This document shows, piece after piece, positions 43,800 through 45,253 of a stretch of 64,000 nucleotides of DNA. A program made the position numbers and the translations under genes. Origin of the DNA: Colwellia sp. 12G3 (lineage in GTDB: Bacteria; Pseudomonadota; Gammaproteobacteria; Enterobacterales; Alteromonadaceae). The number at the start of each line of letters is the position of its first letter. The first letter of the stretch is position 1. The stretch is from contig NZ_PJAQ01000054.1 in the NCBI RefSeq assembly GCF_002836775.1, positions 124,001 through 188,000 of the forward strand. The letters are read 5' to 3'. The notes beneath the pieces were generated by a model. That model saw only the letters and a program-made list of their open reading frames with translations, searched no databases and had not been told where the DNA came from.

Positions 43800-43951
43800 T
43801 GTGGGTTCTGAATAAAGTTGGAAACGTCTAAATAAAGATGGAAACAATATCCTAAATAAAAGGCCTCACTTTGTAAGTGGGGCTTTTTTTGTTTGTAGTG
43901 GCAATTTTAGGAGTTGAATAAAGATGGAAACCGTTAATTAAAGTCAGAAAC
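43800..43951. mobile_element. Two tandem Tn7-like transposon ends (remnants)
   Basis: End 1 begins TGTGGGTTCTGAATAAAG at 43800 and has two TnsB-like sites AATAAAG(T/A)TGGAAAC spaced exactly 20 bp (43811, 43831). End 2 begins TTTAGGAGTTGAATAAAG at 43906 with sites at 43917 and 43937, again 20 bp apart. Both are preceded by GCAAT. Tn7 right ends begin TGTGGGCGGACAATAAAG with repeated AATAAAG...AAAC sites at about 20-bp spacing. No tns genes are in the window, so these are remnants. Confidence 0.7.
43861..43892 (+). terminator. Intrinsic terminator downstream of glmS
   Basis: GGCCTCACTT-TGT-AAGTGGGGCT (10-bp stem with two G-T pairs) followed by seven T residues. It lies between the two Tn7-like ends, as if the glmS terminator had been displaced by the insertion. 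Confidence 0.8.
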
Positions 43952-44160
43952 TGGAATTATTACGTTTAAGTACAGAAAATCCTTTCAAAAAATTTAATTA
44001 AACTTTGAAATAGTTAACTTCTAAAATATAACTCTAAGGGCAGTAGCTGGCTATCCGTTGACCTAAAGAACAAACCATAGTTAATTAATTATGATAATCG
44101 TCGCCACTTTCATGACATTGAACTAACTGTCTATAAGTGAGTTTTGATTAGTTTTTGTAT

Positions 44161-44229
44161 CGCTAACGTTAGAACTAACAGGCGTGCGAAGCGTTAGCGT
44201 AGCACGTCCGGTTAAGTGATTTATTAGGC
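44161..44229 (-). repeat. attC-like recombination site of the PliI cassette
   Basis: Read on the minus strand it begins GCCTAAT directly after the cassette gene's stop region and ends GTTAGCG. The two arms form an imperfect dyad: ACTTAACCGGACGTGC aligns with the complement arm ACTAACAGGCGTGC, with an extra base on one side, as in attC L boxes. The outer boxes fit RYYYAAC/GTTRRRY with one or two deviations. Length is 69 bp, within the usual range for attC. Confidence 0.65.
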
Positions 44230-44231
44230 AT

Positions 44232-44678
44232 TTATCTGGCCCTTGGTTTCTTTAGAGCCGAGATAGGGTTTGCTTCTGCTTGAAGACCCTCAACTTTAGA
44301 GATTAAGTTCATCTTCTGGTCATTGCTTATTTCGAATGCATAAGCAGAAAGGTAGCCACCAGTCCCTGCAGAACGAATGATCACAATGACCTCTGGCTTA
44401 TTGTCACTATCTATATCACTAAGTATTGCCTTCTCTATGAAGCCATCTCGAGCATTGATAAGCCCACTAATGAAAAAAGTCGTTTCATCACCGGCTGGAG
44501 CAGTTTGGTACAGTCGAATACTGAAACTGCCTATGGATCTAGCCTCGAATTCCCCCTCTGAAATTACAATTGTTTGGCCAGAGGGAAGTGTTAATTTTTT
44601 TATAAATCTATCTGATGCCATGGCAGGCAACGTGCCAAGTAGAAGTATAATTGTTGCGAGTGCAAAAATTTTTGTCAT
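44232..44678 (-). CDS. PliI-like periplasmic i-type lysozyme inhibitor (gene cassette)
   Basis: 148 aa with a signal peptide (MTKIFALATIILLLGTLPAMA). The mature part resembles PliI: LTLPSGQTIVISEGEFEARS, SFSIRLYQ, FISGLINARDGFIEKAILSD and VIVIIRSAGTGGYLSAYAFE. PliI binds animal invertebrate-type lysozymes in the periplasm and protects the cell wall. The identification is by recognition of these segments, not by a search. It is oriented opposite to glmS. The gene fits a single-gene integron cassette: GTTAGGC just upstream, and an attC-like site two bases after its stop. Confidence 0.75.
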   Translation of the reverse strand: MTKIFALATIILLLGTLPAMASDRFIKKLTLPSGQTIVISEGEFEARSIGSFSIRLYQTAPAGDETTFFISGLINARDGFIEKAILSDIDSDNKPEVIVIIRSAGTGGYLSAYAFEISNDQKMNLISKVEGLQAEANPISALKKPRAR

Positions 44679-45253
44679 ATCTGCTCCATTTGCAGCGGAA
44701 ATAGCTCAGACACTAGCGGTGCCTAACGGCCATTTAAGGACTTGTTGGTAATTGATTTGTAGCATAGGTGTAGCAATTTTATTTGGACTTCTATTGTATA
44801 AACAATATCGCTAAAACGTCACTATTGCCACTTAATGAGACATTAATATTTTCAATCCCTTACGTCAACTAAGCGCACTTTTTTGATGTTAGCTTTTGGT
44901 GAAGACAAACTTAAAAGATCTCATTGTTCTAAGGTCATTATCTGCCACATTGCTGAGCTAAATTAGTCCTCAAAATTAGTCAAATTTATGTTCACTTAGA
45001 TACGTTAGCTGACCTTTCACTATTCCGTTTTTATGACTTTTCTGTGCGCTAGGCGGAAACTTAGAGTGATAAAATCAAAGCTTCTGCATCACACCTATAA
45101 GCTGACGTTAATTTTAATGCTGCTATTGGCAACTGTGAACACATTGCTGCCCTTAGTAAAGGTAAATTTTTAAGGTTTTTAGGGGTAAAAGAACGAATAC
45201 GGACGTTAGCTTTAATACTTAATCTATTAGTTTCAAGTAGCCTTGTCGTTTAT
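44679..45253. other. 575-bp gap with attC half-site and inverted-repeat module
   Basis: Starts with the attC half-site (44721-44750). From about 44988 it holds blocks GTTCACTTAG, AAGCTGACGTTA, GGCAACTG, GCTGCC and CGGACGTTAGC that recur inverted at 51420-51600. No ORF. Confidence 0.65.
44721..44750 (-). repeat. attC half-site upstream of the PliI gene
   Basis: On the minus strand GTCCTTAAATGG-CC-GTTAGGC: a consensus GTTRRRY core with a plausible L' arm. The left half of this site is not found beyond 44750. It marks the 5' boundary of the cassette (G/TTAGGC). Confidence 0.5.

Follow-up and report, generated by a model that had tools for sequence, protein, structure and literature searches.

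How a gene framed like an integron cassette comes to lie far from any integrase is the question raised by a short minus-strand gene of Colwellia sp. 12G3. The gene lies within 64,000 nucleotides of contig NZ_PJAQ01000054.1; this whole stretch was analysed and is called the window here. Our answer, which we regard as probable, is that the locus is a laterally acquired pliI cassette, coding for a periplasmic PliI-type inhibitor, in a decayed member of a genus-wide set of cassette islands that have no integrase of their own. The gene at issue is:

44232..44678, minus strand: PliI gene, 148 aa, with a signal-peptide-like N-terminus (by eye); assigned by Pfam PF16743 and PDB 3od9/4pj2

The sequence-only reading of this DNA had called the product PliI-like and had proposed a comparison with PliI structures and profiles, which bore the assignment out. 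The protein matched the Pfam PliI profile with an E-value of 4.8e-37 and 126.8 bits (curated cut-off 27), and it aligned with the solved PliI proteins 3od9/4pj2 over the whole mature domain (residues 22-146, E 3.9e-27). The SAGxGxYLSA stretch of 3od9 and 4pj2 is also present in the window protein, whereas the SGxY loop for which PliI is known reads TGGY. If exported, the protein would bind i-type lysozyme in the periplasm and, by analogy with PliI, may inhibit it; PliI biology would also suggest a role in host defence, and the cassette could be of benefit near invertebrates. Promoter-like sites around pliI occurred at chance level (6, with 3.7 expected). The known PliI is encoded by a resident gene, whereas here the gene is cassette cargo, framed by the following features:

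44167..44726, minus strand: expected excision product of the cassette (TTAGGC ... G), 560 bp, bounded by two G|TT core positions
44161..44229, minus strand: attC, 69 nt, from the sequence and a 15.0-bit covariance match with the same ends
44229-44223, minus strand: R'' of the attC, from the sequence
44216-44202, minus strand: L'' of the attC, from the sequence
44201-44188, minus strand: attC loop, 14 nt, from the sequence
44187-44175, minus strand: L' of the attC, from the sequence
44167-44161, minus strand: R' of the attC, from the sequence
44721..44727, minus strand: upstream core GTTAGGC, from the sequence
44721..44750, minus strand: attC-like remnant that lacks a stem and has the upstream core as its last bases, ACCAACAAGTCCTTAAATGGCCGTTAGGC; matched weakly by the covariance model (4.7 bits, E 3.6)

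On the minus strand the attC reads GCCTAAT, a 6-nt spacer, CTTAACCGGACGTGC, the loop, GCACGCCTGTTAG, a 7-nt spacer and GTTAGCG. The imperfect 69-bp dyad with GCCTAAT/GTTAGCG, described earlier as beginning two bases past the stop codon, was found in the sequence as stated (stop at 44232). The asymmetry reported for one inner arm was also there, with two extra bases (T and A) instead of the one described. A G|TTRRRY core lies ahead of pliI (44727-44721), 42 bases from the ATG, and the attC lies behind the gene (44229-44161), so that the earlier description of a gene framed like an integron cassette holds. Excision to a circle would bring GCCTAAT and GTTAGGC together as outer boxes, complementary at 6 of 7 positions. 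The cassette had also been described as solitary; there is only one whole attC, but the attC-like stretch just upstream is perhaps a second, stem-deleted one.

Taken alone, the dyad is not significant. By core boxes and arm pairing, 3 places in the window (the attC included) are equally good, against a total of 4 in 10 dinucleotide shuffles, and the fold of the attC has a z of -1.49 on the strand opposite the gene and of -0.47 on the gene strand. Since the dyad alone is not beyond chance, the case for a cassette is made by framing and context: we argue, from the arrangement and not from a computed probability, that chance would seldom place a dyad immediately after the stop codon of a gene whose start codon is itself closely preceded by a matching core. 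A chance dyad was rejected on account of this framing and of the repeat directly behind the attC (repeat C, below).

A covariance search for the attC had also been proposed. We built the model with 12 attC sites taken from the Colwellia sp. 12G3 genome, all of the long resident class; it is not a generic attC model, and its first version, R1 (8 pairs), was superseded by R2, with the stem entered by hand. An earlier core-box scan that required GTTRRRY at the end had overlooked resident attC sites. The check came out divided: in 44050-44850 the best match fell exactly on 44229-44161 (15.0 bits, E 0.014 for 801 bases), but the site was not reported when the whole window was searched with default filters at E<=1. 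We rejected an origin from the resident arrays, in which 21 attC sites scored 46-102 bits (12 of them having built the model), against 15 for the window attC.

Like other integron gene cassettes, the window copy holds one gene, no convincing promoter of its own, an attC behind and G|TT cores at both ends. It differs in having no attI or integrase beside it, and its attC is short, whereas resident sites form a longer class, mostly of 90-103 nt. The evidence supports an integron-type cassette, a gene of the PliI family and lateral acquisition; a cassette with PliI cargo is well supported and is a further case of a known kind of thing.

What lies behind the attC bears more directly on the question of location:

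44103..44162, minus strand: diverged copy of C, a dispersed repeat, following the attC immediately; identity of 77-93% with stretches from eight fetched genus loci, and an exact CGATACAAAAACTAAT

Repeat C starts CGATACAAAAnCTAATC and has an inner block near GCTAATGTCCGCAATGTGG. With at most one mismatch, the motif CGATACAAAAACTAAT gave 138 matches in 34 of the 39 genus genomes, compared with 24 for the reversed motif. We counted as clear copies the 59 of 74 motif matches in the fetched loci that passed an inner-block filter; the window copy, which follows GTTAG and misses this stricter filter by one mismatch, was kept out of the count. A GTTA core stands at the start of 45 of the 59 clear copies (42 GTTAT, 2 GTTAC and 1 GTTAG), the other 14 starting otherwise. 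In many loci hits of the attC model end where C starts, and in others short or stem-deleted attC sites precede it (by eye). Many arrays have C at their far end or close to it, although arrays continue past it in L079, L081, L086 and L090. A few copies (L053, L057 and L062) are away from attC. In L062 and in L080 near 4508, about 1.1 kb ending in C are 99% identical and the sequences beyond C differ; in these two genomes C adjoins the end of a gene, with no attC between them. When one locus was compared among 23 fetched loci, C was present in 4 and the remainder was a repeat mosaic, so that no clean filled and empty pair was obtained.

Arrays that close with C are often headed by a second repeat, P, of about 310 bp. 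The last part of P, GGACATTACTGAGAAGTCTCCATAATAAGCTG|TTA, resembles the stretch of G216 between a complete IntI and the first cassette, which is the attI; by this resemblance P would be a copy of an attI. P was found in 36 of the 39 genus genomes and, at a loose threshold and with some matches partial, in 50 of 196 family genomes (19 of 52 genera); it had no match among plasmids. By eye, the left edge of P resembles the right end of C in inverted orientation.

The pairing of P and C was analysed with 97 P matches of at least 50 bits and 117 of the 138 C motif matches, 21 having been dropped by eye as not C. All 42 pairs within 6 kb had both repeats on the same strand (C downstream of P in 29, upstream in 13), in 19 contigs of 12 genomes, so that the pairs are not independent. 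At 18 of 30 fetched P loci (a subset of all P copies) there was a downstream attC on the same strand, two of these loci also having one upstream, and on the other strand there was none; 6 of the 34 model hits had been dropped as opposite-strand shadows. The remaining 12 loci had no attC, several of them being shortened by contig ends.

Integrases are rarely near. Proximity was scored against a picked set of at least 61 IntI matches or remnants, Xer-like and phage-like integrases being left out. Among the IntI matches listed, 91 of the 97 P copies had neither an IntI nor a remnant detected within 2 kb, and the other 6 had either an integrase (2 copies) or a remnant (4 copies); some P copies are at contig ends, where an integrase could be out of sight. 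The Colwellia sp. 12G3 genome nevertheless holds two complete IntI on other contigs (464 and 459 bits, cut-off 265); the same profile gave weak matches in 14 of 14 control genomes and none above the cut-off. Arrays of long attC sites adjoin both, one of them being cut off where contig C11 ends. At C30:2118 on the minus strand (L030), about 35 kb from the integrase, there is a second attI-like copy of the resident type; three attC sites follow it, and no integrase lies beside it in the stretch read. The earlier statement that the cassette is away from any integrase is therefore right for the neighbourhood of the gene but not for the genome, which has two complete IntI with arrays elsewhere.

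It seems from these comparisons that the genus holds integrase-less islands, a typical one opening with P as the attI copy, continuing with a single cassette or a few that each have an attC, and closing with C. For the window the relevant remains are C directly behind the last attC, as the diverged copy at 44162-44103, and the following:

44845..44949, minus strand: terminal part of a C-type repeat, then a linker and the outer left edge of P; 77% identical over 105 bp to L079 5634-5737

In G202 the counterpart, L079 5634-5737, joins one C to the next P. P itself had no match in the window, where only its outer edge and the linker were found. Membership of the window in the islands rests on C and on the 105 bp at 77%, because P itself is absent, and the window looks at best like a decayed member of the family. 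From the order of the edge of P, the attC-like remnant and the cassette, the cassette most likely has what is left of P on one side and a worn C on the other.

In the mechanism that we propose, an IntI made elsewhere in the genome would act on cassettes in circular form, recombining their folded attC with the attI of an island. Cassettes would gather in this way between P and C without an adjacent integrase, and C would mark the far end. At the window site the integration would likewise have been carried out by IntI in trans, and an earlier cassette would seemingly have been lost together with the interior of P, leaving the edge of P, the attC-like remnant, the PliI cassette and C. A wider form of this proposal is conceivable, and we hold it tentatively: the genus, and probably part of the family, would carry dispersed integrase-less platforms with inverted-repeat-like ends and an inner attI, loaded in trans between P and C, and the pliI cassette would have entered through one of them. 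An empty P-C junction was sought, and its absence speaks against the islands: 11 near matches were obtained in 8 of the 39 genomes, none with P ahead of C. The arrays that run on past C, the 14 C copies that follow no GTTA core and the repeat mosaic at the one locus compared count against them as well.

The same missing junction favours the view that C is a small mobile element which seeks attC ends and joined the cassette after its arrival, P being unrelated. Some group II introns and insertion sequences seek attC ends. C begins sharply where an attC ends, even if that attC is short or has lost its stem, which would suit such an element, as would the few copies of C away from attC. An element of this kind would hardly agree in strand with P in every one of the 42 pairs or stand so often at or near the far end of arrays, even with the four loci in which arrays run on; we consider this view unlikely, if less so than the other rivals. 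Unlikely too is a relic of a once complete integron at the site, with integrase and most of the array lost. The attC-like remnant upstream of the cassette and the integrase remnants near 4 of 97 P copies (among the matches listed) would fit it, but no integrase remnant was present around the site among the window's open reading frames of at least 70 aa, and the IntI profile search of the genome listed no match on the window contig.

Cassettes are known to integrate at scattered genomic sites. By plain secondary-site insertion, IntI would have used an ordinary genomic G|TT site, and C would be a bystander repeat that happened to offer one; the absence of P from the window agrees with this. A GTTA core nevertheless precedes 45 of the 59 copies of C, and C pairs with attI copies on the same strand, too regularly for a bystander, and we hold such an insertion to be distinctly improbable. 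That the locus is an ordinary pliI beside a chance dyad, with no cassette at all, could draw on the dyads of equal quality elsewhere in the window and on the low covariance score, yet the two cores occupy the positions that a cassette requires, C follows immediately, 38 of 39 genus genomes lack the gene, and DNA homology with another phylum stops at the attC box. This last reading is very improbable. Compared with all of these, the decayed island remains our preferred reading. CALIN elements are clusters of at least two attC without an integrase. The window cassette is like these and like secondary-site cassettes in lying far from IntI, but it has a single whole attC, the second being a weak remnant, and so is not a CALIN in this sense; the genus islands differ from both in that attI copies precede the cassettes and a constant repeat follows them.

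We then consider the origin of the gene. A single genome of the 39 in the genus had PliI, as did 2 of the 196 in the family, the second family protein being 39% identical over 114 positions. The earlier reading had proposed looking for the same cassette in nearby genomes; PliI was absent from the other 38 genomes of the genus. A class-wide search found PliI in 5 of 369 genomes, including its own, with one other good match (39%) and three weak ones. A scan of one genome per species gave two relatives, in an Akkermansiaceae MAG (45%) and a Desulfobulbaceae MAG (74%), and a plasmid search gave one Aeromonas record (45%).

The Desulfobulbaceae gene, the nearest relative found, is 74% identical in protein and 78% in DNA over 477 bp, and the DNA match stops at the last base of the attC box GCCTAAT. 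Past this box come domains of a group II intron in the MAG, and also a reverse transcriptase that carries a maturase domain, in which it resembles the attC-seeking kind of group II intron; in the window, in contrast, no such intron, and no other Rfam match, was reported at the gathering threshold. Shared DNA that ends at GCCTAAT and is followed by a group II intron fits transfer of pliI as a cassette between phyla. Against such transfer, neither an upstream core nor, by the covariance model, an attC was found in the Desulfobulbaceae MAG, and no attC-like end was seen by eye at the Akkermansiaceae pliI. In the genus genome G206 an end similar to the MAG's intron end occurs at a GCCTAAT box just before C, where Rfam reported no intron. 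Behind pliI and the intron, the MAG (L013 2996-5572) carries genes of the PIN, HigB-like, HicB and YoeB families, which are toxin-antitoxin-type cargo.

These results would add a lysozyme inhibitor to the known cargo of cassettes, and the pliI cassette suggests that one cassette may be common to two phyla. The P-C islands are possibly a new variant, and the more interesting part of the finding. Integrase-less cassette clusters are usually read as remnants. A genus with scattered attI copies, many of them with cassettes closed by one repeat, would show a second route, by way of one integron acting in trans. If the proposal is true, a single integron would provide many genomic landing places, and clusters without an integrase would be explained without integrase loss.

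The location had earlier been ascribed to attTn7. The repeats start 272 bp, and the attC ends 385 bp, beyond the stop of a gene that was identified as glmS by reading its open reading frame, not by a search; both points are past a terminator-like stem. With this distance, and with C copies scattered elsewhere, attTn7 was rejected as the reason for the location, which is better explained by repeat C behind the attC; the proximity of attTn7 looks incidental. Another repeat lies on the far side of C:

44048..44085, plus strand: repeat B, a dispersed intergenic repeat of the genus, from repeat comparison

Repeat B was rejected as the other end of C: it occurs with C in the window, L031 (the same place as L067) and L081, and without C in L007, L047 and L048. 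Its inner end resembles the inner end of C (window 44048-44085; L007, L047 and L048). The window segments 43908-44049 and 44928-45016 are adjacent in other genus genomes (L039 and L040); the intervening 44050-44927 therefore has the appearance of a composite insertion within a further dispersed repeat. Finally, P and the G216 attI (L079 4598-4905; L094 6917-6611, minus strand; L089 1231-1620) contain two near-perfect palindromes of the type TTACTGAG-nnnn-CTCAGTAA, and a third half copy lies at the crossover site; the palindromes are candidate binding sites, possibly for the integrase or for a regulator.
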